Positions 999-63,312 of a DNA stretch of 64,000 nucleotides are shown here, piece by piece. The DNA is taken from contig OZ038456.1 in assembly GCA_964036195.1 (NCBI GenBank), positions 25,335,792 to 25,399,791 on the forward strand. Direction: 5' to 3'. The DNA comes from Sphaerolaimus hirsutus (taxonomy: Eukaryota > Nematoda > Chromadorea > Monhysterida > Sphaerolaimidae). Made by a program: the position numbers and the translations under genes. Within the stretch, counting starts at the first letter, position 1. Each line of letters begins with the position of its first letter. The notes below the pieces were generated by a model that was not told the origin of the DNA, ran no database searches, and saw only the letters and a program-made list of their open reading frames with translations.

Positions 999-1041
999 AT
1001 GGACCCGGCCGCGCCCCCTCGCAACCGAGCCCCTGCTGGCC
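999..1041 (+). CDS. gene A exon 1 candidate (start of F-box/LRR paralogue)
   Basis: The context GCAGCCATGGAC opens a short frame starting MDPAAPPRNRAPAG. Gene B has a matching short first exon starting MDPAVP at 55700, so I take this as the first exon of the paralogue whose F-box exon is at 6929. The normal donor seen in gene B (CTGCTGCAG then GTGCGT) is absent here. Instead, right after CCTGCTG, a copy of the GTCCCAAGCCCTGTAAAG repeat begins. The repeat either destroyed the donor or replaced it, but no donor in the right phase is evident. Confidence 0.4.
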
Positions 1042-1130
1042 GTCCCAAGCCCTGTAAAGTGTAAAGTAAAGTGTCAAATGTAAAGTCAAATGCAAAGTAA
1101 ACTGGCAATTGTCATGCAAAGTTCAGTTAT
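1042..1130. repeat. GTAAAGTGTCAAATG-family repeat at the end of gene A exon 1
   Basis: GTCCCAAGCCCTGTAAAGTG followed by TCAAATG and CATGCAAAG words; same start as the long inverted repeat of the element at 28751-29726. The right end is unclear. It abuts exon 1 of gene A, like the family members forming gene B introns 3 and 6. Confidence 0.55.
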
Positions 1131-5068: not shown

Positions 5069-5952
5069 CAGGGTTGGTTTTATAAAAATTCATTTTAGTA
5101 AAATTGTATAAAAATTGTATAAAAATTTTATTTTATTTTAATTTTATTCTTGTTTCATTTTATTTTATTTTATTTTATTCCCAAAAGTCATTAATAAAAT
5201 AAAATGACATCATTTTACAAAAAATTTACAAAAATTTTACAAAATTTTTACAAAAAATCGGAATCATGCATGCAAGGCCATAATTAGACCTTTACATGAA
5301 AAACCTGTGACAAATTTTCCCTTACTTATCAAAAGTTGCATGCTGTAGGTATTGTTAGCTAGCTGCAAGTGTAAAGTTACAATAATTGATAATAATGGTT
5401 TGCATTTTCAGTAGAAGGACTACTGGAGTGTGCTGGGCACATTTGTAAAATGTCATGCAAAGTGTCAATTGTCATGACAAATGTCATGCAAAGTGTAAAT
5501 TGTGTAAATAAATCTTGTGTTTTTGTATCCATAGTATGTTTTGTATCCAAATCTTATGTTTTTGTACCCAAATGTTCACATAAGATTTGGATTCAACAAC
5601 AATGTAATTTGGATACAAAACAAAAGATTCAGAAATAAAACATAAGATGTGGATACAATTTGCTTGACATTTTACATGACAATTTACACTTTACAAAGCT
5701 TGGAACTGTCCCCCAGATCCATGAATAAACACGTAGACACTCAAGCAATGAGAAAATTTTTTATAAAAAATATGAATTTTTATACAATTTTACAAAAATA
5801 CGAATTTTTATACAATTTTACAAAAATTTGAATTTTTATACAATTTTTATTTTTATTCTTGAATTTTCCATTTTATTTTATTTTATTTTTTTCTTAAATT
5901 TTCCATTTTATTCATTTTTTATATATTTTTTTCTGAGATTTTGCCAACCCTG
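5069..5952. mobile_element. hAT element, CAGGGTTGG ends, TTTTATTTTA words
   Basis: CAGGGTTGGTTTTATAAAAA at the left and TTTTGCCAACCCTG at the right; target copy CTCACAAG at 5061-5068 and 5953-5960. The termini are AAAATTTTACAAAAATT and TTTTATTTTATTTTA words. A GTCATGCAAAGTG-type repeat sits in the middle (about 5435-5706). Confidence 0.9.
5435..5706. repeat. nested copy of the GTCATGCAAAGTG / GTATCCAAATCTTATG foldback family
   Basis: Begins near CTGGGCACATTTGTAAAATG and ends near TTTACAAAGCTTGGAACTGTC. The centre has GTATCCAAATCTTATG and its complement CATAAGATTTGGATTC, the same centre as gene B intron 6 and the element at 28751-29726. Confidence 0.65.
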
Positions 5953-5960
5953 CTCACAAG

Positions 5961-6928
5961 TGACATTCAATCCAAACACAATGAAAATTGTCATTTGACA
6001 AAACAATGCATTTACTACAAAGTGATTTTTCCAATGCATCCAAAGCAGCAGGTGAAAATGGCATTTTTACGATTTGAAACCGTTGATTTACTAGTTTGCA
6101 ACTTTGACAGCTTATCAGTCATTTCAGCTTTTGATTTAGATACGTCGGATGTACTGCGTGATGAAAGACATTTTACTGTGGTTTGCAGCATGAAAATTGT
6201 GTTATTGAACAGTCTATAACATACTTTAGACAGAGAGAATTAATATGACAAAAACGTTTTTTCAATATCTCTTTCCAATCAAAAGTTATTGCACTTAGAA
6301 ACTTCCATCTTCATTCCATCCATAATAATTGCACATTACTCATTCACAGTTAGGCCAACTTTTCTCCCTAATAGAGCAAGGCCAAAACCTCAAATTTACA
6401 CACCAAATAGCCCCACCCAGTAGTATGCCTACCCCCATTTCAGAGTTGCTGGCAATGGATGCAAAACTGCAGCAAAAATTAATAAATGCCACATTTCCAT
6501 GTATGCATTGCCATATGCTGTTCATGCTTATAATGTTTCTCGCTGCACACAGAGCTCAGCGATGCAGGCAAGCAGTTGCCATGGTGAAAATTTTGTTAAA
6601 AAATGAACATAGGAGGTAGATATAGACTTTAAAGTGAGATACTGGGTGGCTACTGCCCAAAACAAGAAAAGTCTCAACTATTCTGAAATATGTACAAACT
6701 GAGTTAATATGTTTGTACACTAGGAATATATGCAGATTTGAACTTGAGGGGCGGTCATCCTGGGCATGTGTAGTTAACCCCCCAGGGTACCCATGTATAG
6801 TATCCTAATCTTTTGCATATCAACCATTTCGAAGTTCTGGCAACATTAATCACGCAGCGCAAAAAGTCTCAACAACTATTCTGCACGGTAGTGTATTTCC
6901 ACCGAATACAGTGCTGTGCCACCCGCAG
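5961..6928. other. probable intron 1 sequence of gene A, no gene recognised
   Basis: Contains a 95-bp fragment of the foldback family (about 6215-6310, AATATCTCTTTCCAATCAAA) and otherwise AT-rich unique DNA. A short open frame at 6329-6619 has no recognisable domain or exon signals. Confidence 0.4.
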
Positions 6929-7156
6929 CTGGTGGAGTCTCCCACGGACGTGCCGCACGTGCTGGAGGCGATTCTGCTGTCCGCGTGCCCCGGCCCCCAA
7001 CAGCTGTGCGCGCTGGTGGCGCCCCTGTGCTCGCGGCTCAGTGCGTTCGTGTACTCCAGGTCTGCCTTGTGGCACAAGCTGATAATTGATGGCAATGAAT
7101 ATTGCAATTTGAGAAAAGACATTGATGCATTGGGCCATTTGTTCCGGCAGCCTAAG
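6929..7156 (+). CDS. gene A exon 2, F-box domain
   Basis: A 228-bp exon in phase 0 between the acceptor CACCCGCAG and the donor AAG/GTTTGA. It reads LVESPTDVPHVLEAIL, then Cys/Pro/Leu-rich sequence, then FVYSRSALWHKLII, the pattern of an F-box (Pro-x-Val-Leu near the start, a Leu/Val/Cys core, and Leu-Trp before a hydrophobic strand). F-box domains recruit substrates to SCF ubiquitin ligases through SKP1. Gene B has an exon of exactly the same length and the same splice borders at 56432-56659, with clear protein similarity and many silent differences, which argues for past protein-coding constraint. The exon is intact, but the next exon of this gene is broken. Confidence 0.75.
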
Positions 7157-7437
7157 GTTTGATGGGGGGGGGGGGCATTTTCGAGTGTGTTACTATGAAA
7201 CGTGAAACGCCAGATAAATGTCAAGTGTCCCTGTAACGTTAGATTTCATACCCTTTACGTTGACACATTTCACACTGTCAGTCCTGGTCTAGAAACTCGT
7301 TCTGTAGGAAACTGCATAAAAAATGTGCTTCAAGTTATCATGAAAACGTCCTTGCAGTGTCCAAAGCAATTTTCAGCAGTTATCTTCGTGTCACTGATTG
7401 AAAGCTCACTTGTCATTGATTGTCATTGGAAACACAG

Positions 7438-7541
7438 GTGTGCACAGGGCTGTGGCATTTGTATTTTGCAAGATTATCGATCAAAACATGCAGTGCTGAA
7501 TTGTTTGTCAATCCGTTTTTTTAATTTGACCGAGCTGCACC
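7438..7541 (+). pseudogene. gene A exon 3, 5' part, frameshifted and split by a foldback element
   Basis: After the acceptor AACACAG it reads VCTGLWHLYFARLSIK and later NLTELH, matching gene B exon 3 (VCKSLWSLFLLNSPIK ... NVTELH), the start of the LRR region. Up to the shared CTGCACC it is 104 bp against 100 bp in gene B, i.e. one extra codon plus one base. The extra base is in a run of seven T (about 7516-7522) and causes an immediate stop. At 7542 the foldback element begins, with GCTGCACC duplicated. The rest of the exon is at 14462. Confidence 0.7.
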
Positions 7542-9219: not shown

Positions 9220-12200
9220 AGTGTGGAACAATGTTTGCAGAACAATGCAGCACAAGCATTTGTAACAACAACCCGAGTACCGGTACACGAAAACCAGGTA
9301 TTCAAGTTGGCTTTACCAACGCTAGTGCCGCGTTCTTCTGCAAACAATGCAACACTAGGGTTGGGAAACAGGAACCAAATTTTGGTACCCAAAACAGTTT
9401 TGGGTTAGTTTAGTTTACCAACACTAGTGCACGTTCCATGTTCTGGATGCACTAGCGTTGGTAAACTAAACTAAACCCGAAACTGTTTCGCATACCAAAG
9501 TTTGGTTCCGGCTCCCAACCCAAGTGCTACATTGTTTGAAGAACAATGCAGCACAAGCATTTGTAACGAGGACCCAAATACCGGTACATGAAAACCAGGT
9601 ATTCGGGTTGGCTTTACCAACGCTAGATCCGCGTTGTTCTGCAAACAATGCAACACTAGCATTGGGAAACCGGAACCGAACTTTGGTACCCGAAACAGTT
9701 TCGGGCTTAGTTAAGTTTACCAACTCTAGCACGCGTTCCATGTTCTGAATGCACTAGCATTGGTAAACTAAACTAAACCCAAAACTGTTTTGGGTACCGA
9801 AGTTCAGTTCCGGCTCCCAACCCTAGTGCCACATTGTTCGCGGAACAATGCGGCACAAGCGTTTATAACGGCGACCCAAATACCGGTACACGAAAACCAG
9901 GTATTCAAGTTGGCTTTACCAACACTAGTGCCGCGTTGTTCAGCAAACAATGCAACACTAGGGATGGGAAACAGGAACCAAACTTCGGTACCCAAAACAG
10001 TTTTGTGTTAGTTTAGGTTACCAACGCTTGTGCACGTTCCATGTTCTGGATGCACTAGCGTTGGTAAACTAAACTAAACCTGAAACTGTTCCGCATACTG
10101 AAGTTTGGATCCGGCTCCCAACCCTAGTGCTACATTGTTTGCAGAACAATGCAGCACAAGCATTTGTAATGAGGACCCGAATACCGGTACACGAAAACCA
10201 GGCAGTCGGGTTGGCTTTACCAATGCTAGATCCGCGTTGTTCTGCAAACAATGCGACACTAGCATTGGGAAACTGGAACAGAACTTTGGTACCTGAAATA
10301 GTTCCAGGCTTAGTTAAGTTTACCAACTCTATCGCGCATTCCATGTTCTGAATGCACTAGCATTGGTAAACTAAACTAAACCCAAAACTGTTTTGGGTAC
10401 CGAAGTTCAGTTCCGGCTCCCAACCCTAGTGCCGCATTGTTTGTGGAACAATGCGGCACAAGCGTTTATAACGACAACCCAAATACTGGTACACGAAAAC
10501 CAGGTATTCAAGTTGGCTTTACCAACACTAGTGCCGCGTTGTTCTGCAAACAATGCAACACTAGGGATGGGAAACAGGAACCAAACTTCAGTACCCAATT
10601 CAGTTTTGTGTTAGTTTAGGTTACCAACGCTTGTGCACGTTCCATGTTCTGGATGCACTAGCGTTGGTAAACTAAACTAAACCTGAAACTGTTCCGCATA
10701 CCGGCAAGCATTTGTAATGTGGACCCGAATACCGGTACACGAAAACCAGGTAGTTGGGTCGGCTTTACCAATGCTAGATCCGCGTTGTTCTGCAAACAAT
10801 GCGACACTAGCATTGGGAAACTGGAACAGAACTTTGGTACCTGAAACAGTTTTGGGCTTAGTTAAGTTTACCAACTCTATTGCGCATTCCATGTTCTGTA
10901 TGCACTAGCATTGGTAAACTAAACTAAACCCAAAACTGTTTTTGGTACCGAAGTTCAGTTCCGGCTCCCAACCCTAGTGCCGCATTGTTCGCGGAACAAT
11001 GCGGCACAAGCATTTGTAACAAAGACCCGAATACCGGTACATGAAAACCAGGTACAGTCGTCCCTGGGTTAACGGTTCCCCCGGTTATCGGGTTCCCCGG
11101 GTTACTGGGTGGAATTGTCAAAACCAGGGACACGTGTGAACAAAATTCCCGGGATTGAGGGTTTCCCCGCATTCCCGGGTTATCGGGTGGGATTTTGAGG
11201 ACATTCTGCATTTTCATATATAATGTGGCTTCAGTTATCGGGCATTTTAGCATTGAAGAACCATTTACTTAAAACATTTCCCAAGCGTGCAGGCCTGTAA
11301 ACGTGCAGCGTGCCTTAAATGCCATCATAAATTTACTTGTTACACATGGCACGATAATTGCATTTAAGAAGCCTCTTGTTCACGTATTAATGATGTAAAT
11401 GCTGGTAATGCCATGCACAGCCACCATGGCACTTATATAGTACATCCCCCGGTTATCGGGTTCCCCGCATTATGGGGTGAGATTTGAAAAAATTTACTCC
11501 ACCCGATAACCCGGGGATGACTGTATTTGGGTTGGGTTTACCAATGCTAGTGCCACGTTGTTCTGCAAACAATGTGGCACTAGGGTTGGGAAACAGGAAT
11601 TGAACTTTGGTACCCAAAAAAGCTTTGGGTTTAGTTTAGTTTACCAACTCTAATACACGTTCCATGTTCTGGATGCACTAGCATTGGTAAACTAAACTAA
11701 ACCTGAAACTGTTCCGCAAACTGAAGTTTGGATCCGGCTCCCAACCCTAGTGCTACATTGTTTGCAGAACAATGCAGCACAAGCATTTGTAATGAGGACC
11801 CGAATACCAGTACACAAAAACCAGGTAGTCGGGTCAGCTTTACCAATGCTAGATCCGCGTTGTTCTGCAAACAATGTGACACTAGCATTGGGAAACTGGA
11901 ACAGAACTTTGGTGCCTGAAACAGTTTCGGGCTTAGTTAAGTTTACCAACTCTATTGCGCATTCCATGTTCTGAATGCACTAGCATTGGTAAACTAAACT
12001 AAACCCAAAACTGTTTTTGGTACCGAAGTTCAGTTCCGGCTCCCAACCCTAGTGCTACATTGTTTGCAGAACAATGCAGCACAAGCATTTGTACGACCCG
12101 AATACCGGTACACGAAAACCAGGTATTTGGGTTGGGTTTACCAATGCTAGTGCCAAGTTGTTCTGCAAACAATGTGGCACTAGGGTTGGGAAACAGGAAT

Positions 12201-12360
12201 TGAACTTTGGTACCCAAAAAAGTTTTGGGTTTAGTTTAGTTTACCAACTCTAGTACACGTTCCAAATGCACTAGCATTGGTAAACTAAACTAAACCCAAA
12301 ACTTTTTCAGGTACCGAAGTTCGGTTTTTGTTTTCCCAACGCCAGTGTCGCGTTGTTTGC
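9220..12360. repeat. tandem array of ~301-bp monomers in ~603-bp dimers, each monomer palindromic
   Basis: The landmark GGCTCCCAACCC recurs about every 301-302 bp (9511, 9813, 10114, 10416 and on). Alternate monomers are more alike, giving a ~603-bp higher-order unit. Each monomer contains dyads: AACAATGCAGCAC against GTGCCGCGTTGTTCTGC, and CCAACACTAGTGC against GCACTAGCGTTGG. One unit near 10700 has a deletion, and one near 11055 is interrupted by a pogo-like MITE. Short open frames on both strands follow the repeat period and are not genes. Confidence 0.88.
11055..11523. mobile_element. pogo/Tigger-like MITE in the tandem array, TA target
   Basis: CAGTCGTCCCTGGGTTAACG to CCCGGGGATGACTG between TA dinucleotides. 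The interrupted array unit reads ACCAGG-TA-TTTGGG, intact at 12118-12130, so the empty site is present in the window. Same family as 1219-1665. Confidence 0.9.
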
Positions 12361-28636: not shown

Positions 28637-28750
28637 TAAATACCGTATTTCCTCAAATAAACCCCCTTGAATTGACCCCCCTCGAAATACCCCCAGGTCT
28701 GAAAATCATGGGGAAATAATAAACCGCCCTCGAAATACCCCCACCCGAAT

Positions 28751-29726
28751 GCGTTGTCCAATATCGTGCGGCTTTGCGTCATCACCATAGCCTAGTGCGC
28801 ACAGTCGTTCCTCCTTCCTATGGGGGCAGTCCCAAGCCCTGTAAAGTGTAAAGTAAAGTGCCAAATGTAAAGTCAAATGCCAAGTCAAATGTCAATTGTC
28901 ATGCAAAGTGTCAAATGTAAAGTAAAGTGTCAAATGTTATGCAAAGTGTCAAATGTAAAGTAAAATGTAAAGTCAAGTGTCAATTGTTCATCCTTATCTA
29001 ATTTTTTGTATCCAAATCTTATGTTTTGTATCCAAATTTTCTGTCAAAAGTACATTTATTTTATTTTTTATTTATTTTTTATTTATTTTTTTATTTTTAT
29101 TCTTTTTATAAAAAGTTTTTAATAAAAATAAACAAATTAAAAAAAAAATCAAATTTAAAAAAAAAATTTAAAATTAAAAAAATTAAAAAAATTTATATAA
29201 AAATTAAAAAAGTACTAAAAAATGAGATAAAAAAATAAAAAATTAAAAAATATAAAAAATTAAAAAATTAAAAAATAATACAAAAAAAATTATTAAAAAA
29301 TTATACAAAAATAATTTTTGACATAAGATTTGGATACAAGATTGGGATATGATTTTACTTTACATTTGACACTTAGCATGACATTTGATAATTTACTTTG
29401 CATTTGACTTGACATTTGACACTTGACTTTACACTTTACTTTACACTTGACACTTTGCATAACAATTGACATTTGACTTGGCATTTGACTTTACATGACA
29501 TTTGACAATTTACTTTGCATTTGACTTGACTTTTGACACTTGGCTTTACACTTTACTTTACATTTGACACTTTGCATGACAATTGACATTTGACTTGGCA
29601 TTTGACTTTACATTTGACACTTTACTTTACACTTTACAGGGTTTAGGACCACCCCCATAGGAAGGAGGAACGAGTGTGCGCACTAGGCTATGGTGATGAT
29701 GCGTAGCCGCACGATATGGACAAGCG
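28751..29726. mobile_element. MULE-like MITE with >100-bp inverted ends and 10-bp TSD
   Basis: Left GCGTTGTCCAATATCGTGCG, right complement CGCTTGTCCATATCGTGCGG. Inverted similarity runs through CCTAGTGCGCAC and CCTATGGGGGCAGTCCCAAG for over 100 bp. CCACCCGAAT is at 28741-28750 and 29727-29736; the empty site (CCCGAATTC in complement) is at about 19065. Inside are GTAAAGTGTCAAATG words, GTATCCAAATCTTATG around a T-rich/A-rich centre (29040-29310), and their complements. TIR length and TSD fit Mutator-like elements. Its inner part is the family found in gene B introns 3 and 6. Confidence 0.88.
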
Positions 29727-29882
29727 CCACCCGAATTCAGTGTAAAAAGATATATACGACAAAACTTCAATTTGTGAACCATGTGTTCACATGTGAAAAA
29801 CAACAAATGAGCTGTATTACGACATGTATTACCAGGTCTGTGTACATACATATGTCGATAAACGCTTATACATCTCTCTAAC

Positions 29883-52821: not shown

Positions 52822-53616
52822 GCCAGGGGCCAGGCGTTTAGTTCTTGGTGTCGCGTAAAAAAATTGGCTCCAAGCGCCACAGAGCTTTTCATGGGTGTGG
52901 TGCCATAACATAATGGCGTCAAACGCCAAAAGCGCCATGGCGCTTTTCATTCACTGAGCCTACGCCAGTAAGAGATAACACGGCCAGTGTGAGTGCATCG
53001 CGCTTCTGTTCTTTTTTCGTGTCTACCTTCATCTGTGTGAAATGCCAGATAAATCTCTATCTCTATAATGTCATAAAATGTTTACTGCACAGACAGTACA
53101 ATACACCTTACAATGAAATTTACCATATCCCATCTGAATAAAACATCAATTTTGTTATTTTTCTGACTACAGTTGATTTTTTGTGCAATTTTTCATGCGA
53201 TTTTATTCATGAAAATATGGTAGCATTCTTTGTATAGTGTTCTGTCCGAGCAATTTCAAATGAAATTTCTCTGACATTGGAGCTTTTTCGTGGGAGCGTA
53301 GCCTAGGAAGTTTTGTACTGCTTATCAAATCTGAATTGTACCAATGAATGATTGGATTCTCCTTAGTTTTCGAGCTTTACGTTTCTTCCTTGAATACTGA
53401 TGTCGTTGAACTGTTTTTCATAGTTGTTTTATTCATAATAAATAAATACCGTATTTCCTCGAATTATCCCCCCTCGAATTACCCAGGCCTCCTCAAAACG
53501 GGCTGTCGAAATCATAACCCCCCCCCCCGAAATATCTCTCATCTGGAATCATGTACATCATGTATGCATGTACATTATGTATTTATTGCAGGTAATTGTC
53601 GTAGCTTCTACACATA

Positions 53617-54560
53617 CACTCCTGGGAAAAGGTCTTTGTCCCTCCGATTTTTTTGGTTCAATGGCGAACCACACATAAAATATGCATCACAGAGGGGTGC
53701 AACTGATACATAGGGGGGTCATGATGTCAACCCCCCACAGTAGAAATATGGCCTCCGTCCTGCATATATAATCACTATTTCTGCACCGTGAACGGAGTGC
53801 CGTCCGCGATTTTTTGTTGCTTTCTTTTACATTCCGATAAATGCGTGCATCCATGAGCTGACATGGTGCCAATATTTTGTTTTGTTCATTAATTCAAAAA
53901 TAAACACCATGTCGGGCCGATATTTGTCTGCCAATCGACGGCAGACGATTTTGAAGATATGATGCTAAATCAATGAGAGTGCAGAGTAACAAGCCCACTG
54001 CATATGCCATTTTGAATACAAATTTCGCAAAGTGATAAATATTTGAGGAGTGCATCGTTTTTTTCCACATCGCATCGCAGTCTTTTTCATCGTTTTAACA
54101 TGTTTTTTCTTTGTTTTCACATTTTCACAAAAGGGACAAAGACATTTTTCCACCTGAAATTTGACTTTGGATGGCTGTCAAACGAGCAGCAAGGCACCCA
54201 GAAAGCTAAAAATCGACATTTGCTATATACTCCGGTTACTTAACAGCTTGCACGCGTGGTTCCCGTTGGAAGTGTGCCAACGATGGTTAACACGTGCGAG
54301 TTTCATAAAAAGATCACAAAATTGATTGTTGTTATAATGTTATTCATTAACGTATTCACATCGATACATTTTTACATCTTTTTATGGAAATCGCATGATT
54401 TAACAATCATTGGCACGCTTCCAACACGATACATAAGTCAGTGCGAGGGCCGAGTATCATGTCTGCCGAGTATATATCCCGATACGGGTCGCATGTTAGC
54501 AGGGGAGACATTGATTTTTTTGTTCCCCACCAGGAGGACAAAGACCTTTTTCCAGGAGTG
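53617..54560. mobile_element. Tc1/mariner-like element remnant, TA target
   Basis: CACTCCTGGGAAAAGGTCTT and complement of CACTCCTGGAAAAAGGTC at the two ends, TA at 53615-53616 and 54561-54562. 944 bp, close to the size of simple Tc1/mariner elements, but no DDE transposase frame could be read, so probably decayed or deleted. Confidence 0.7.
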
Positions 54561-54648
54561 TATAATAGTTTCTATACCTATTTACATTGATATGTCCTAA
54601 TATAACCTATTTGGTAACATTTATTACAAGTTTTGGGTACGTAGAGGG

Positions 54649-55022
54649 CATAGGCGGCGCAAGGTCTCAATTTGCGCTTGTGACATTCACATGAGTCAAA
54701 ATTTCACCTTGTGACACCTTTTAATCAGAGCCCTTATGGGAAGTTGGCAGCCAGCCAAAAATTTCGAAATCGCTATCAATATAATAAAGATGCGCTACAC
54801 ATAGCTATATAACTGTGTAAATAGATAAAAATAGTGTTTACATAGGTGCAAAGTGCCAAAATGTGGCAAATTTCAGCGATTTTGAGCTAATTTTGAGATT
54901 TCACTCTTGTTTGTACAATACACGCTTGTGAATGTCACAATGTGACAGTAAAATTTCCGCTTGTGACACCAAAATTTCCGCTTGTGACATTCACAAGCGT
55001 ACAAGCACTTACGCCGCCTATG
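54649..55022. mobile_element. 374-bp MITE, CATAGGCGGC ends, 8-bp TSD
   Basis: CATAGGCGGCGCAAG to TTACGCCGCCTATG between GTAGAGGG (54641-54648, 55023-55030). Subterminal word CTTGTGACATTCAC repeats in both orientations. 8-bp TSD suggests hAT, though the CATAGGCGG end is unusual. Confidence 0.82.
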
Positions 55023-55189
55023 GTAGAGGGTCATTCTTTACTACGATCCTTCACGAAATTTTTCGACGAAATAATAAAAGAAACCCTCGAATAAGCCCCC
55101 CTCTAAATACCCCCCTCAAAATTTGCTGGCGAAATAATTAACCCCCTGTGGGTACTTCGAGGAAATACAGTAGATGGCATATGAACTTT

Positions 55190-55560
55190 TTAAGCGGGAA
55201 TTAGAGCTCAGCGTCGATTCGACGTGAAATGATGACGTGAAATGACGTCGTGAAATTAATTACACGAGTGTGGATCATGCTACGGGTCTACAATTTTCTA
55301 AGGATAATATATGAATCAATACCTTAATCGTGTCCAATACTGAGTGTTATCAGCCACAACTAGAGCGAATTGAAAAATTCAATTTTTATCATTTCACGTC
55401 ATCATCATTTCACGTCACAGTGTCAGGGAACAACTTGACATTTCACGTCAGACTTTTGCAAGCAATTAATTAATTACTCGTGTAATTAATTTCACGACAT
55501 CATTTCACGTCGTCATTTCACGTCGAATCGACGCTGAGCTCTAATTCCGGCTTTAAAGGT
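55190..55560. repeat. palindromic MITE with GACGTGAAATGA words
   Basis: GGAATTAGAGCTCAGCGTCG on the left and its complement on the right; between them TCACGTC/GACGTGA words repeat at several spacings. TSD not resolved. It ends about 140 bp upstream of the gene B start codon. Confidence 0.75.
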
Positions 55561-55699
55561 TGAAATATTTATTTGCTTGGTCCTCAGTACAATGCAATAC
55601 TGCTTACTACTACAATACTATTTTCTACAATCTCTACTATCTAGTGTGTCTATTGTGCTGTGCTGGGGAGGTTTTTCAGTGTCCGGCTGCCCTGCTGCC

Positions 55700-55744
55700 A
55701 TGGACCCTGCTGTGCCCTGTGCCGGGCAAAGTCGCCTGCTGCAG
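55700..55744 (+). CDS. gene B exon 1
   Basis: ATG in GCTGCCATGGACC, 15 codons, donor CAG/GTGCGT, phase 0. Gene A has a matching start at 999. Confidence 0.6.
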
Positions 55745-58700
55745 GTGCGTTCACTAAGCCACTTTGGTTTTGTGGTTGTGTGCTAAAATTGCCTATGTCA
55801 CTTGCTCAGGTGCTTTTTTCGAAGTTGGTTTACTCCAGCGAAATTATACCTTACAATGAAATGTACCGTATCCCATCTGAATAAAAGGACAAACCTAAAC
55901 AAATTTTCATCCTATTTATCAAATTGCTTTGGAAAAAAATGATGAAATTTATTATGTTTGTTCTTTTATTCAGATGGTAGATTTCATTGTAAGGTGTAAT
56001 GTCGCTGGAGCTGGAGTATATTATTTATGATGGCAACCCCTCTGGAAAAAGTTGAAATTTTTAAAGTGATATTTTCTAAGACGACTGTATTTAGAATTTT
56101 TTTCTGAAAGTAGTTTTTGGATATTTCTGAATTTTTATTCACCAAATTGTTGCATTTTCGAATTATTCGTTAAATGTTGTGCCCAGCGCCATTGTATAAG
56201 GTGGCGCCTGAAATGTACAAATGCTGTGATGAGACTAATTTTTGCCATATTCCAGTGTTTATCTGCTGGATTTGTTGTATTTGTTTGTTTGTTTGTTGTA
56301 TCTGCTGGATTTGTTTGAAGTATTTAGTTGCATCCTAAATTATATAAAGAATTGCATGTTATAATGTTTATTATAGTAAAGATCAGTTTTGAAAAAGTCT
56401 AGTCGCAAAATACGTCTTCTACCGTTCACAGCTGTTGGAGTCACCGACGAATGTGCCACACATCCTGGAGAAGATCCTGCTGTACGCGTGCCCCGCCCCC
56501 CAGTCACTGTGCAAAAATGTGGCGCCCTTGTGTTCTCAGCTGCGCAACTTCGTCTACTCACGGCCGAGACTGTGGCGTCAACTGATAATTTATGGTGATA
56601 AACGTCTCAATCTTGGAAGAGACATTAATGCATTGGCCCATTTATTTCTGCAGCCAAAGGTTTGGGAGGGGGTGAATTTTGCGAGTGTCTGAGTTTGCAA
56701 AGCGTTTATATTTATGACATCACCGAATTTTTTCGGAATACTCCCCCCTCGAATTGACCATCACCTCGAAATACCCCCAGGTCTGAGCGAGCTGAGGAAA
56801 AAAATACCCCCCCCCCTCAAAATACCCCCGTCTGGAATGATGTACATCATCTATGCAATATACCGTATTTCCTCGAAATACCCCCCCCCCTCGAAATACC
56901 CCCCCCTCGAAATACCCCCCCTCAAAATGGACACTATGAACTTATAAACCCCCCCCTCGAAATACCCCCCCCCCAAATTTAGTGTATAGAGAACGTAAAT
57001 AACAAAGGCTGCGGTTTGTCATCCGGGCAATGCAGAACACACGTTAAAAACGATGACTCTGTTATGTGAGAACAGTGTTTGTACGTCTACACACTTATAA
57101 ATGTCTTTAGAGTCTTACAAATGGCGATTTTTGTTGCATTTTTCGACGTCTGCGTACGTTTCAGACGACATTTTAGTACTGGGATTTCAAAAAATTTCTG
57201 GCGAAATAATAAACCCCCCCCCCCTCGAAATACCCCCCCCCCCTCGTTTAACCCCCCCTCAAAATTCTCACTCTGGAACAATAAACCCCCCGGGGGTATT
57301 TCGAGGAAATACGGTACATGATGTAAATATCAATAGCTGCCAGATTTCATCGCAGCTACAACCGTAATACCTCGAAATACCCCCCCCCCCCCTCGAAATA
57401 CCCCCTCAAAATGGGCACTACGAATTAATAGACCCCCTAAATTGAGTGTAAAGAGAACGTACATGACCGATACTGCAATTTGTGTTCTGTGTAGCAGTGT
57501 TGTTAAACTACTGGTATTTTTGGAAAACGTAAACTTAAAAGTAAATACCTTTTTCAAACTGAAAGTATAAATATTAATACATAAGGTATTTTGAAAATAC
57601 CAAGGAATACGTAAAAAAAACGTAAACGTAAAAAATTAAATATGTCACTCGGTGTCGATGGCTGCTCTCCTGAAGCATCTTGTATTTATATTTATCTGCT
57701 TCAAGTTCTGACTTTGTGCTGTCAACTGCCGCTGTGTCGTCGTCAGAATTCATCACCAAAATTATTTAAAAACGGCAAAATGGGTCTACTTCACGTGCTT
57801 GATTGGCGGCCCACGCACTAGTTGGCACACGTGTCAACTAGTCTGTATCAACGCAGATTTCGGTTTTGCGTGTTGCGAGCCATCCCCAAATGCACTTGCT
57901 GCAATGTTGAAAAAAATGTTGGAAAGTGCATTGGGAGATTGCCCTGCGACACGTGAAGCCCAAATCTGAGTTGACACATACCAGTTGAACTAGTGTGTGG
58001 GCCGCCATTACCGTATTTCTCCGTGTAAAGGACCCCCCGAGCACAACACCCGGGGTGTTACACAGCTGCATAGCACCCCGGGGTGCTATGCTAGGTTGCA
58101 AAAAATCCGTAAAAATGTACCATCATATGTAGGGACTAGGGTGTCAACAAAAACTTTTTGGCGGAAAACAGAAACGGAAACAGAAAAAAATTTACACTTG
58201 CCAGAAAACGGAAACGGAAAAAAATTTGCACCTGCCGGAAAACGGAAAATGGAAAAATGAAAGGCCGGAAAACGGAAACGGAAAAATTTGCTGAAATTAT
58301 GCCGGAAATGGAAAAAATTTGCTGAAATTTTGCCGGAAACGGAAAAAAAATTGCAGAAATTTATCCAGAAATCAAAAAATTTGCAGAAATCTTGCTAGAA
58401 ATAGAAATATATCACATAATTAAGAACCTGCATGCATGTTTACCAGTTTGGCTGAAACAGAAAACAGAGAATTGAGTCAGAAAATGGAAAAAAAGTTGGA
58501 AAAACAGACAATTGAGCCGGAAAACGGAAAAAAGGCGGAAAAACTGAAATTTTAGCCAGAAAACAGAAAATGAGCCAGAAAAACGGGAAAAAAATTTAGC
58601 AGCCGGAAAACGGAAATGGAAAAAAATTTGCCTGCAGAAACGGAAAATGGAAAACGGAAAGTTGACACCATAGTAGGGACATTCCTAGAAAATGGAAGCA

Positions 58701-61700
58701 CGCTGGCATTTGTACACTCGATATGTATTTACCAAAACCCTGTTGACCTAACACCTGGGTGCTATACAAGTTTTCAAAAATGGTTGCTGAAAAGCACCTC
58801 AATTTTGTATAACACCCGGGTGCTTTACACGGAGAAATACGGTAATGCATATACCGCAAATCCTCGAATAAGACCCCCCCCCCCTCAAATAACTCCCCCC
58901 CTTGAATAACCCCCCTGTTGGCGAGGTGGGGAAAAAATAACCCCCCCTCGAATAACCCCCCCTCTTGAATAACTTTCCCCTCCGGATGAAAAACTTTCCC
59001 CTCCGGATGAAAACTATACAATACAAAAATGCAAAAGAATATTATACAGCAGCAACAGCAGATACATTATGTGTATGCAGTGTACCTATACACATCTTTT
59101 TGTTGTTGTTGGAATGTTATATACCTGAATTATATTTTACAGAGTTTACAGACTGCACCCATACAATGAATGAAGTCCAAGTTTTATGAGGAAAAAATAA
59201 CTCCCCCTTGAATAACTGCCCCTCCAAAACGTCTGAGGAAAAAATAACCCCCCTGGGGTCTTATTCGAGGATTGAGGGTATTATTATAGCCAGTATTCCG
59301 TGTATAACTGCACTGCATGCGTGCAGTCATTTTCATGTCCTTTATTCTTTTTCTATACATTTTACACATTTGTAAAAATGTAACAATTTTGTTTGCTGCA
59401 GATGGTGCGGCTATTTTGAACGTGTGATAGATCAGAGTTTTTTTTACGTTTTCCCTAGTACCCGGGTATTTCGTTCGGGAATACGTAACAATACGTAAGG
59501 ATAAATACCAAAATACCCGGTTATTTCGGGTAAACGTAAATACGTTTTTGCAACACTGCTGTGTAGTGCAGAACACACGTGAAAACAATGTCGGAATCAC
59601 GTTAGAACAGTGTTTTTACCATCTACATATTAGTCTACACAAGCTTATACGTGTCAGTTATTGATGCGTTGTTCTACCCCAGGGTATGTCACAAACAACG
59701 ATTTTGTACTCGGGTTTCAAAAATTTTCTGGCGAAATAATAACCCCCCACGAAATACCCCCTCGTTTAACCTCCCGCCCTCTCTCGAGACCACTATGAGA
59801 CAATCACTCCCGGGGGGTATTTCGAGGAATTACGGTAGATTAGTTTATGTTGCTATTTATATTTATGTGCCCAAATAATACCCTGTTTGGACACATTTAT
59901 CAGCAGTTTTCGGTATGTTCACGCAAATTTTTTACTAAGCACCTTCACGAAAAAATAAACCCCCTCGATAATCCCAACCTCGTTTACTTAGACCCACCCC
60001 CTCAAAATTTTCACTCTGAGAAAATAACCCCCGGGAGTATTTCGAGGAAATTTCGAGCCATTTTGTGACCCTGTTTGCAAAATATAAAAATTTAAGCACC
60101 TCACGTATTTCACACTTTTTTCCAGAAATTTTTTCGCTCATTCAAACCTCACACTTACAATGTCCTCAAAAATTACACTCTCAATCTTTGTTTCAATTAG
60201 GGATAATCGGCGTTTTTTCAGACGTTTTAAAAAACGCAAGCATCAAAACCGTTTTTTTTTAAAACTTCAGCCGAAATTTTTGGTACTAAGCACTAGGTAT
60301 TTTGCAATTTTTGTGTGCAAGCGCGCAATTTAACAAACATATTACCATTGCTGGTGGTTTCCATTGCTTGTGAGGCATTTTTAGTGTAAAAGCTTCCATT
60401 TGTCCATGCTATTGTGTCATAATAAGCCGTGATATGTGAGTGTAGTATAGCCAATGTGCCCCCAGATAGTTATACTGTGTGAAACATCACTGCCAAAGTA
60501 ATTGTCTGCTCTTATAACCTTATTTAAGCACTATTCCATGCCCAACTTCACTTGAAGTCACACATGTTCAACAAAAGGCGATATACGGTAAGTAAGAAGT
60601 CGACACAAAACAGATATTTTTGACATAAAAAGCCACATAATGCTATCCCATGGCTCTACAGCCATTCAATGGCTACATAGAACATCACAAAGTACTGCCA
60701 GTTGTCTTATGTACCTGTATATGGGGACCCATAACCATATCTGGGACTTTTAGAAGAAAAAACGTTTTATTTAAAAGACACGTTTTTTATTTAAAAAACG
60801 TTGTTTTTTTAAAAATGGGGTCGTTGAAAAAAAACGTTTTTTTTCCATCCCTAGTTTCAATGATTGAATGTTCACACGATTGGATTTTTCCATGCAGGTG
60901 TGCAAAAGTCTGTGGTCTTTGTTTTTGTTGAATTCTCCAATCAAGGTAACCACTGTCATTTTTGCTAATCCACTTTCCAACGTGACTGAGCTGCACCTGG
61001 AAAAATGCCAAATTTCCAACTGGGAAATGTTGAGATCGCTGGCCTGGTGGCACTCCCAGACCCTGTAAAAAAACCCTGTTAAATGACAAATGTCATGCAA
61101 AGTGTCAAAAGTCGTGTAAAAATCCTTAAAATGTCAAACAAGCAGTAAACAGGATAAAAGTAAATTTGACATTTTACAGGGCGTTTTACATGACTTTTGA
61201 CGCTTTGCATAGCATTTGACATTTTACAGTTTTTTTTACAAAATCTGGGAGTGCCCCCTGGGCAACTCCAAATTTGCAAAAGATTGCACTGCATTATCCT
61301 GAGTATGAATGTCAAGAAAGGATTTTAAAAAAAGCCCCAGAGAGCGATCACTTTTGGCCAGGATTGAAAACTGCAGTTGTCAATGATACTCGCATGGATG
61401 CAGTATTGTTTGTGCTATTGCAAAGTAGCTCGCTGGAGGTTTTTGAAATTTCCGGACGGTATCCCCCGTTAGTTATTCTCTTGGGGTCGTTTTTTGGGTA
61501 TGCCCAGTGCTCATGTAGACCTGGTGCTCATGTATTGTAATTGTTACCCGCTGCTCATGCATACCCGGTGCTCATCTACACCTCCCCCTAATTGGGTGAG
61601 TGTTACATGAGCACATGTCAGGTGTGTGGGGGATGTGATAGAATGTGCATCAGTGCAGCACAGGGGAGGGAGTAGGTAGCAGCCGCAGGTCTACATGAAA

Positions 61701-61906
61701 AGATTATGGCTGGCAAACACAATGGACGCCAAAGCCTTTAAAAGGCAAATTTTTCATGTGCTCAGACAAAAACCATCTAAGCGATAAGTTTTTCTGTAAA
61801 TCCCTTGCACATTACATTACAGGTGTCATCACAAATTCTTCCAGTGATTTTTTTTAATTAAAATGTACATATAAATATATCACTCAGAATTTAGAAATAA
61901 AAATAC

Positions 61907-61955
<49 letters not shown>

Positions 61956-63312
61956 TATGTGTTTTTTATGCTAAGGGGTGCATATGAGCACCAGGTATCT
62001 CGACATGAGCACCAGGTTTACATGAGCACTGGTACAAGGTCAAGAAAACAATGGTTTCTAAAAAATTTAGACTTGACTTTTGTATGCTTTCCTCAGTATT
62101 TAAAAGTACCTTCTGCTTTAGTATAAAAAGTCAAAATTTTGAAAGCATATTTATGCTTATGTATTCACTTTCTAAAATACCAGTATTTTAACAACTCTGG
62201 TTACATGAGCAGAGGACCTCAACTGTTTTTATGCCACATGTGTTATCGGAATGGTGCTATTAGCAATATTTTGCATTGAAGTGATTTGGCACTGTGCCAT
62301 TGTCATGTGTTTGGTGCCCCTTTAGTTTGTGCCTTATGCGACCTAAAGAGCACCAATATAGACTGACTGTATATTTACTGAATGCCTTTACAGGATTCTC
62401 CAGACTCGCAGATGCGTGGCCGCGCTTGTTGAGAGACACTCGGGCACTCTGAGAGAAATTGTTCATCGCGCAGCCGCAGGTTTAAATGACAAATCAGTCA
62501 GGCAGCTGGCAACCTGCCAGCACTTGCAAAAGTTTGTGGCGTTTTGTGAAGGTGTGACAGCAGATGCTCTGGCCATTTTATCAGTTGGTTGCATTTTCAT
62601 TGTGTTGCAATCATTTTGTCCCAGCCCAACGTGTGCAATGTGCCGCAGGATGTGCGCGATACGCTGCAGCACTTGCAATTCCTTTCTGAAGTTTCTGAAA
62701 TTGGTTTGACAAGATTGATGCTGAAAGGAGCCCCATGGTGCCTCTCCCAGACCCTGTAAAAGACCCTGTACAGTGTAAAAAACCCTGTAAAGTGTAAAAG
62801 ATCCTGTAAAGTGTAAAAGATCCTGTAAAATGTCATTTGTCATGTAAAAGACCCTGTGAAGTGTCATGTGTCATGTAAAATACCCTGTTAAGTGTCAAAT
62901 GTCATGTAAAAGACCCTGTAAAGTGTCATGTGTATCCAAATCTTATTTTACTGTATCCAAATCTTATGTTTTTGTATCCAAATGTTACTTTTTGGCATTA
63001 CATTTGGATAAAAAACATAATATTTGGATACGATAAAAAATGTTTTTGATATGGCACTTTACAGGGTGTTTTACATGACACATGACACGTTACAGGGTCT
63101 TTTACATGACACATGACATTTTACAGGGTTATTTACACTTTACAGGGTCTTTTACAGGGTCTGGGAGTGCCCCCAGGCTGCAGCTCACAACACTCAATGT
63201 TCGTGGCAATTTTCATTGCGACGAGGTCATCGATGCGATTGTGCGCGGCGTGCCAGGCTTGCAGCACCTTACATTGGCGTATCTGGTGCCAGTTCCGCAA
63301 GTGGAGAAGTGA
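55700..63312 (+). CDS. gene B: F-box / leucine-rich-repeat protein, seven exons
   Basis: Exons 55700-55744, 56432-56659, 60898-61046, 61252-61458, 62394-62583, 62625-62737 and 63168-63312 add up to 1077 nt, i.e. 358 codons plus stop, and every junction is in phase (0, 0, 2, 2, 0, 2). The protein has a 15-residue start (MDPAVPCAGQSRLLQ), an F-box (codons 16-91) and then irregular LRR units to the C-terminus. Such proteins are substrate receptors of SCF ubiquitin ligases: the F-box binds SKP1 and the LRRs bind the target. Introns 1, 2 and 4 hold nested transposons; introns 3 and 6 are entirely a palindromic repeat. Extra or alternative exons in the 4.2-kb intron 2 cannot be excluded, and intron 5 (41 bp) is unusually short. 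Confidence 0.72.
55832..56014. repeat. palindromic MITE in gene B intron 1
   Basis: CTCCAGCGAAATTATACCTT and complement of CTCCAGCGACATTACACCTT frame a 180-bp dyad (TTACAATGAAAT, CCATCTGAATAAAA). A single half also occurs at 53105-53150. Confidence 0.7.
56432..56659 (+). CDS. gene B exon 2, F-box domain
   Basis: LLESPTNVPHILEKILLYAC ... FVYSRPRLWRQLIIYGDKRL; acceptor TTCACAG, donor AAG/GTTTGG, 228 bp, phase 0-0. Same length and borders as 6929-7156. F-box core with Leu-Trp close to the C-terminal strand. Confidence 0.82.
56735..56862. repeat. CCTCGAAATACCCC fragments
   Basis: C-run/TCGAAATA units without complete ends, directly before the complete element at 56863. Confidence 0.5.
56863..57314. 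mobile_element. CCGTATTTCCTCGAAATA element, complete, 452 bp
   Basis: CCGTATTTCCTCGAAATACC to GGTATTTCGAGGAAATACGG, TA on both sides. The undisturbed reference copy of this family in the window. Confidence 0.88.
58011..58842. mobile_element. TA-flanked element with 20-bp perfect ends
   Basis: CCGTATTTCTCCGTGTAAAG and exact complement, TA on both sides. Subterminal words ACACCCGGGTGCTATAC. Split by hAT 58137-58672. Confidence 0.9.
58137..58672. mobile_element. hAT element, TAGGGTGTC ends, GGAAAACGG words
   Basis: TAGGGTGTCAACAAAAAC to GAAAGTTGACACCATA, TSD GTAGGGAC at 58129-58136 and 58673-58680. The interior is almost only CGGAAAACGGAAA and GCCGGAAA words. Complete reference for the pieces at 19341 and 25886. 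Confidence 0.9.
58854..59278. mobile_element. TA-flanked element, CCTCGAATAAGACCCC ends
   Basis: CCGCAAATCCTCGAATAAGA and complement of CCCTCAATCCTCGAATAAGA, TA at both sides. TTGAATAACTCCCCC words inwards. Confidence 0.8.
59847..60197. repeat. CCGTATTTCC-family debris in gene B intron 2
   Basis: CCTCGATAATCCC, CACCCCCTCAAAATTTTCAC and TATTTCGAGGAAATTTCGAG without clear ends. Confidence 0.45.
60198..60853. mobile_element. hAT element, TAGGGATAATCGG ends, AAAACGTTTTTTT words
   Basis: TAGGGATAATCGGCG to TTTTTCCATCCCTA, TSD GTTTCAAT at 60190-60197 and 60854-60861. It ends 44 bp before gene B exon 3. Confidence 0.92.
60898..61046 (+). CDS. gene B exon 3, start of LRR region
   Basis: Acceptor CCATGCAG; reads VCKSLWSLFLLNSPIK, SNVTELHLEKCQISNW and EMLRSLA; ends CTGGCCTG in phase 2 before GTGGCACTCCCAG. 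The same exon in gene A is split by a 6.9-kb foldback. Confidence 0.75.
61047..61251 (+). other. gene B intron 3: introner-like palindromic repeat (205 bp)
   Basis: GTGGCACTCCCAGACCCTGT at the start, complement ending AAATCTGGGAG at the end; inside AAATGTCATGCAAAGTG words in both orientations. Donor GT and acceptor AG lie in the inverted ends. The last four bases of the terminal repeat (TGCC) begin the next exon. Confidence 0.75.
61252..61458 (+). CDS. gene B exon 4, LRR
   Basis: Continues in phase 2 with Cys-Ala-Pro-Trp-Ala-Thr-Pro, then NLQKIALHYPEYE, a normal LRR strand, WPGLKTAVVNDTRMDAVLF and LLQSSSLEVFEISG; donor ACG/GTATCC in phase 2. Confidence 0.7.
61459..62393 (+). other. gene B intron 4
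   Basis: Holds a repeat with CCAGTGCTCATGTAGACC words and complements (61500-61620, 61975-62035), a (TA)n run at about 61915-61950, and a hAT right end (TTTTAACAACTCTG, about 62190-62203). No coding signal. Confidence 0.6.
62394..62583 (+). CDS. gene B exon 5, LRR
   Basis: Acceptor CTTTACAG; completes the Arg codon split by intron 4, then CVAALVERHSGTLREIVH, LNDKSVRQLATCQHLQKF, GVTADALAILS: three typical LRR units of the F-box/LRR type. Donor TCA/GTTGGT, phase 0. Confidence 0.75.
62625..62737 (+). CDS. gene B exon 6, LRR
   Basis: After a 41-bp intron ending TTTTGTCCCAG: PNVCNVPQDVRDTLQHLQFL, then IGLTRLMLKGAP; ends CCCATG in phase 2 before GTGCCTCTCCCAG. An alternative acceptor at GTGCCGCAG (exon start 62649) would keep the frame. 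Confidence 0.68.
62738..63167 (+). other. gene B intron 6: introner-like palindromic repeat (430 bp)
   Basis: Begins GTGCCTCTCCCAGACCCTGT and ends TACAGGGTCTGGGAG. The whole intron is one long dyad of AAAGACCCTGTAAAGTG and TGTCATGTAAAA words around GTATCCAAATCTTATG/CATAATATTTGGATAC. The centre is the same as in the mobile element at 28751-29726 and the repeat at 5435-5706. Confidence 0.78.
63168..63312 (+). CDS. gene B exon 7, C-terminus
   Basis: Cys-Ala-Pro-Arg-Leu, then LQLTTLNVRGNFHCDEVIDA and GVPGLQHLTLAYLVPVPQ, ending VEK and TGA at 63310-63312. Last LRR unit; phase 2 entry matches exon 6. Confidence 0.75.

Follow-up and report, generated by a model that had tools for sequence, protein, structure and literature searches.

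In maize, Ds and dSpm elements inserted into exons are spliced from pre-mRNA via sites at or near the element ends, in cases that are single mutant alleles and often imprecise. Introners that are DNA transposons were reportedly described by Huff and coworkers in 2016. The origin of new introns is an old question, and animals have very few known introners. In one survey (PMC9860276), introners are reported from 175 of 3,325 genomes and, among animals and land plants, from only two groups, both of them animals, and terminal inverted repeats (TIRs) are reported for 72 of 177 introner families. One family in the same survey, from Aureococcus, carries both splice sites and adds 12 bp, or four residues, to the transcript, with 4 bp coming from the element and 8 bp from the target site duplication (TSD).

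Gene B, a predicted plus-strand gene of seven stop-free exons in the 64-kb stretch of DNA analyzed here (the window), has two predicted introns built from copies of a palindromic repeat. We consider it probable that these copies are introner-like MITEs that inserted into the exons of a metazoan gene and are removed as spliceosomal introns. The features of the gene are as follows, with a slash marking each splice border:

55700 to 55744, plus strand: gene B exon 1 (MDPAVPCAGQSRLLQ), with donor CAG/GTGCGT (score 4.88)
56432 to 56659, plus strand: gene B exon 2, 76 codons
60898 to 61046, plus strand: gene B exon 3, ending in phase 2 (..GCC TG/)
61046 to 61258, no strand assigned: hairpin MITE-like copy making up intron 3, 213 bp; arms K = 0.158
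61047 to 61251, plus strand: predicted intron 3, GT..GAG; alternative donor 61065 (CCT/GTAAAA)
61252 to 61458, plus strand: gene B exon 4, first 9 nt TGCCCCCTG
62394 to 62583, plus strand: gene B exon 5
62584 to 62624, plus strand: predicted intron 5 of gene B, 41 nt, score −3.5, with a poor donor
62625 to 62737, plus strand: gene B exon 6, ending in phase 2 (..CCA TG/)
62737 to 63174, no strand assigned: hairpin MITE-like copy making up intron 6, 438 bp; arms K = 0.10; central TATCCAAATCTTATG sub-palindrome
62738 to 63176, plus strand: preferred intron 6, ATG/GTGCCT ... CCCCCAG/G, which restores a TGG codon
63177 to 63312, plus strand: gene B exon 7, with stop TGA; its start would be 63168 with the acceptor of the initial annotation

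As the initial annotation had proposed, introns 3 and 6 are complete copies of a palindromic repeat. Both belong end to end to one family, only the element lies between donor and acceptor and thus between exons 3 and 4 and exons 6 and 7, and in both introns the distance from element end to junction is 0–9 nt. The donors GTGGCACTCCCAG (61047) and GTGCCTCTCCCAG (62738), both in phase 2 in the gene B model, were found as claimed, CTGGGAG was located at 61245–61251 and 63161–63167, and TGCCCC follows both GGGAG ends. The copies have long foldback arms of tandem units, ∼90 nt in one and 125–165 nt in the other. At the left end of the intron 6 copy, 3 mismatches fall in the first 6 letters versus 9 in the other 119 (p = 0.012, for a division chosen after looking).

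The family ends read approximately GGGGGCA(C/G)TCCCARACCCTGTAAA. Scanning the window with a 24-letter consensus, allowing up to 6 mismatches, recovered ten such ends (6 left and 4 right) versus none in each of 10 mononucleotide shuffles, and local BLAST with both copies identified additional arms and fragments in the window. With terminal inverted repeats, several copies, a short length, and no evident coding region, the family has the properties of a MITE or non-autonomous TIR DNA transposon. A one-base difference at the left ends of the intronic copies, said to place a GT at the exon border, is real (GGTGG versus GGGGG, with T in both introns), but it extends beyond the two introns, since T occupies that place in 3 of the 6 left ends and in none of the 4 right ends. 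This distribution of the T that makes the donor GT is a hint of selection and no proof of it.

Both insertions lie within a TGG codon at a CCWGG-like site (by eye, the flanks are CCTGG and CCTGG at intron 3 and CCATGG and CCCAGG at intron 6), and the empty sites, joined in silico, stay in frame. Beside other family copies, target duplications have no common length by eye. Could the elements have entered introns that already existed? MITEs commonly land in introns, and ordinary introns at both places might later have been nearly wholly replaced by them. We find this improbable: neither intron retains anything but element sequence, letters of the element end lie in both cases where the following exon begins, and two independent complete replacements would be needed, while local BLAST at E ≤ 0.01 detected no family match in intron 2 (4.2 kb) or intron 4 (0.9 kb).

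The origin of the two copies can be examined by comparing their interiors with other members of the family, of which the closest in the window include:

76 to 236, no strand assigned: family copy matching the interior of intron 3 best
28822 to 29656, no strand assigned: family copy matching the interior of intron 6 best
5440 to 5713, no strand assigned: family copy matching the interior of intron 6 second best

For intron 3, the interior score is 90 with the copy at 76–236, 80 with a copy near 12.4 kb, and 57 with intron 6; for intron 6, it is 124 with the 28.8-kb copy, 108 with the 5.4-kb copy, and 57 with intron 3. As both interiors are closer to copies outside gene B, two insertions are likelier than one copied intron, and from their sequences the copies look like members of different subfamilies that inserted independently. 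It is highly improbable that a single element-derived intron was copied along with its exons during duplication of an LRR unit. Both introns are in phase 2 and, by eye, close to where an LRR-like strand begins, and their left ends match at 87% over 31 nt, but their lengths differ (213 versus 438 bp), and we rejected a shared duplicated intron on the match scores (57 to each other versus 80–124 elsewhere).

The copy at 28822–29656 is the center of a larger palindrome (28751–29727) flanked, by eye, by the 9-bp direct repeat CACCCGAAT (28742–28750 and 29728–29736). Such an arrangement is known from Mutator-like elements. The family core may have been taken up there by an element with other ends or may have inserted in its middle.

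To what extent do the element borders provide splice sites? We scored candidate sites with approximate weights. Of the 153 pairs tried for intron 6, 10 maintain the frame, and the top pairs tie at −0.46, joining donor 62738 to acceptor 63176 or to acceptor 63095, the latter of which would leave ∼80 nt of the element in the mRNA; the pair chosen in the initial annotation scores −6.17. Acceptor 63176 (CCCCCAG/G) scores 0.72, within the top 10% of AGs, and lies 9 nt past the end assigned earlier (63167). An intron ending there keeps the frame and gives the protein KGAP-W-LQLTTL, as without the insertion, so that the Cys-Ala-Pro proposed to be gained at both junctions is not needed at intron 6. 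At intron 3, it is one of the options.

For intron 3, combining donors from 61000–61129 with acceptors from 61170–61299 gave 50 GT-AG pairs, only 3 of which keep the frame. All three use acceptor 61251 (GGGAG/T), with donors 61065 (−6.84), 61047 (−7.11), and 61029 (−11.03). This acceptor scores −5.0, and in the window 75.5% of all AGs match or exceed it. The earlier proposal that both introns end at GGGAG was not confirmed. The place cognate to the intron 6 acceptor reads CCCCCTG/G (end 61260) and lacks an AG; a cut there would be non-canonical and give SLA-W-ATP. Splicing of intron 3 must therefore use the weak GGGAG or a non-canonical end, and if GGGAG is used, the first 9 nt of exon 4 consist of element end plus flank. 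The donors of introns 3 and 6 are of moderate quality, ranking in the top 24% and 16% of GTs, respectively. For intron 3 there are three options: the GGGAG end with exonization, a non-canonical end, or a dead gene.

Both introns are predicted to form exceptionally stable RNA hairpins (z = −15.6 for intron 3, with 0 of 200 shuffles as stable, and z = −24.3 for intron 6, with 0 of 100). Splice-like motifs recur within them, with 4 GTAAA and 2 TTTACAG in intron 3 and 11 and 4, respectively, in intron 6. In the predicted folds, pairing of at least 80% was found for 9 of the 15 GTAAA motifs (2 of 4 in intron 3 and 7 of 11 in intron 6) and for every TTTACAG (2 of 2 and 4 of 4). The splice sites of intron 3 are themselves paired (donor, 8 of 9 letters; acceptor, 4 of 4), which weakens a simple role for the stem in hiding decoys; such pairing would be expected to hinder, not help, splicing. 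In the predicted fold of intron 6, these sites are more open (donor, 4 of 9 letters paired; acceptor 63176, 2 of 4).

These features of intron 3 bring in the main alternative explanation, which is that gene B is a decaying paralogue in which MITEs hit an already dispensable gene or killed it, with no splicing at these places and with “intron 5” a frameshift. We regard this as unlikely, although it would account for the poor acceptor and the paired splice sites of intron 3 and for several further observations. The 41-nt intron 5 has, in addition to its poor donor, seven alternative frame-keeping splits that outscore the predicted one; it is the weak point of the gene model and may be the site of a frameshift. 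In either intron, retention of the copy would bring a TAA into frame once six whole codons had been read, an observation that we count for removal by splicing as well, and the family is common locally, as its ten ends in 64 kb attest. A decayed paralogue, gene A, also lies in the window:

6929 to 7156, plus strand: exon 2 of gene A (paralogue of gene B), with the same exon 2 borders as gene B

The exon 2 alignment (6926–7159) has 67% amino acid identity over 78 residues and a dN/dS of 0.34 over 76 codons. After this exon, an exon 3-like stretch (alignment 7388–7541) contains frame-breaking gaps and stops short of the intron 3 site, and to judge by its sequence, gene A is decayed.

Near the start of the window (999–1120), a start resembling gene B exon 1 (ATGGACCC...) gives way near 1035 to a left arm of the MITE family, and window BLAST detected no right arm close by. 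We considered this stretch as exon 1 of gene A carrying a third exon-border insertion and rejected it, since its alignment with exon 1 of gene B covers only 25 nt and, by eye, the phase misfits exon 2.

Against decay of gene B stands its predicted coding sequence of 1067 nt, which is without stop or frameshift when the inserts and the question of intron 5 are set aside. Joined in frame, exons 3–7 have a 3-base periodicity of 4.13 versus a null mean of 0.88, a level reached by 0 of 2000 draws taken at random from parts of the window other than the known coding ones. Exons 4–7 together, which lie 3′ of the first insertion, retain this signal (p = 0.001, 1000 draws), as does exon 7 alone (p = 0.009), while exons 4, 5, and 6 taken singly are not significant (p = 0.15, 0.20, and 0.25). 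The in-frame join surpasses the shifted joins in periodicity at all 6 junctions of the three-way comparison, by a bare margin at intron 3 (5.80 versus 5.77 when shifted by one, and 0.33). The chance that exons 3–7 would all be open in a given frame is ∼1.4 × 10⁻⁵, a figure that is too low because the borders were picked after looking. Overall, with these signals and with exon 2 and its borders shared with gene A, the gene B model around both copies holds fairly well, and the precise, good acceptor at intron 6 likewise argues against decay.

The divergence of the arms also bears on this question. If the two arms of a copy matched when it inserted, ∼0.05–0.08 changes per site have since accumulated in each copy, which suggests enough time for lesions to arise in a dispensable gene. 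In simulations with substitutions only, a neutral coding sequence remained without stops in 11.9% of runs when d was 0.05 and in 1.9% when d was 0.10. With per-arm divergences of ∼0.05 and 0.08, a neutral coding sequence would thus be stop-free in roughly 2%–12% of cases, and presumably in fewer once indels are counted. Together, arm age and the stop-free coding sequence modestly favor a gene kept in use with the elements inside it.

Searches for relatives of gene B covered 7368 candidates, none of which was a homologue at E ≤ 1, and the PDB, where there was no match. In Pfam nothing rose above the cut-off, LRR_4 scoring 13.3 bits versus a cut-off of 27. When the two Cys-Ala-Pro insertions are removed, this sub-threshold match rises from 13.3 bits (residues 119–137) to 14.9 bits (residues 119–151) and spans the intron 3 site. 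No profile match places gene B above threshold among LRR or F-box-like protein genes; “LRR-like” is a descriptive label only. Exon 2 had 7 pattern matches in viral contigs, with no relative among them, and several other pattern scans of viral contigs gave 0 hits each. Genome contigs yielded one match, in a Lachnospiraceae MAG, judged by eye to be due to chance; blastn against a plasmid collection returned nothing useful, and tRNA and Rfam searches found none.

The DNA of the window is metazoan-like, as exemplified by a BEL/Pao-type element at ∼36.7–46.6 kb with several open frames and matches to Pao peptidase (E = 1.4 × 10⁻⁴²) and DUF5641. One of its frames has 95 matches, the first at 40% identity, with named sources that are mostly animals. 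By eye, retroelement-like frames also occur near 21.3–25.7 kb, and units of ACCGGTACACGAAAACCAGGTA, GCACTAGCGTTGGTAAAC, and variants recur in a long array over 9300–12300, with MITE fragments flanking it on both sides (9.1 and 12.4 kb). Frequent dispersed CTCGAAATACCCCCC / CCGTATTTCCTCGAAAT stretches at 53460–60100 appear by eye to be an abundant repeat; one pattern of this type had no hit in viral contigs.

If the copies in gene B are introner-like MITEs, how would they have become introns? We infer that two non-autonomous hairpin DNA transposon copies inserted independently into exons of the LRR-like gene, each interrupting a TGG codon where the sequence resembles CCWGG, and that both are spliced out. 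The donor would form at the left border, from the target TG followed by the G and T of the element end. The intron 6 acceptor would form at the right border, where the CCCCC of the element is followed by AG (CAG/G), leaving an uninterrupted TGG codon in the mRNA. At intron 3, the cut would fall either at a non-canonical end or at the weak GGGAG within the end of the element, in which case Cys-Ala-Pro is added to the protein in frame. The stem of the long RNA hairpin may draw the borders together and may conceal the splice-like decoys of the arms. Since the arms mirror each other, the element could potentially serve in both orientations.

Several points speak against this reading, namely, the poor intron 3 acceptor, the mediocre donors, the pairing of the intron 3 sites, intron 5, the negative homologue and Pfam searches, the nonsignificant periodicity of exons 4, 5, and 6 taken singly, the decay of gene A, and the imperfect target duplications. 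The strongest of them are the intron 3 acceptor, which is both bad and paired, and intron 5, which is doubtful. A more far-reaching scheme, which we put forward as speculation and consider doubtful, is that of an active metazoan introner family of long foldback MITEs. Here, the arm unit would supply a donor on one side (CT/GTAAAA) and, reverse-complemented, an acceptor on the other (TTTTACAG/), making an intron in either orientation. The stem would cover the inner decoys while the border sites are used, and some copies would restore the exon exactly while others add Cys-Ala-Pro or use a GT-TG end.

How does this locus compare with described systems? It resembles the maize Ds and dSpm cases in that an element in an exon is removed like an intron, a removal that is predicted here, and differs in having two apparently old copies in one gene. 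An introner-like origin, as first suggested, is the best-supported reading of these copies, which are complete, lie at or within 9 nt of the junctions, keep the frame, and have their nearest relatives elsewhere in the window; the mode of exonization suggested with it is not supported for intron 6 and is one of several options for intron 3. Nor is the addition of codons new, as had been thought, since codons derived from an introner plus TSD were already reported for Aureococcus (PMC9860276). Titles and abstracts in the part of the literature that was searched contained no description of the palindromic family itself. Like the DNA-transposon introners of Gozashti et al. (2022; PMC9860276), the copies in gene B are short, have inverted ends, are similar up to the junctions, and keep the frame, with predicted splice sites at, or shared between, the element end and the putatively duplicated target. 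Unlike those introners, they comprise two intronic copies seen in one gene, have long foldback arms of tandem units, and are predicted to be spliced. Similar to the introner elements of Amoebophrya (PMC7789003), they have terminal inverted repeats, direct repeats across the junctions (imperfect here), and a hairpin predicted to join the exon borders. However, the Amoebophrya elements are repeated non-canonical introns with inverted repeats of 8–20 nt and no family-specific repeat motif, whereas the arms here are ∼90 nt and 125–165 nt and most predicted sites are GT-AG. If spliced, the two copies would provide an animal-like case of two independent intron gains in one gene and would illustrate a way for a foldback element to meet the needs of both splice sites. 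Neither TIR introners nor codon-adding introners are new in kind, and the family most likely consists of introner-like MITEs in an animal, adding to a known kind.
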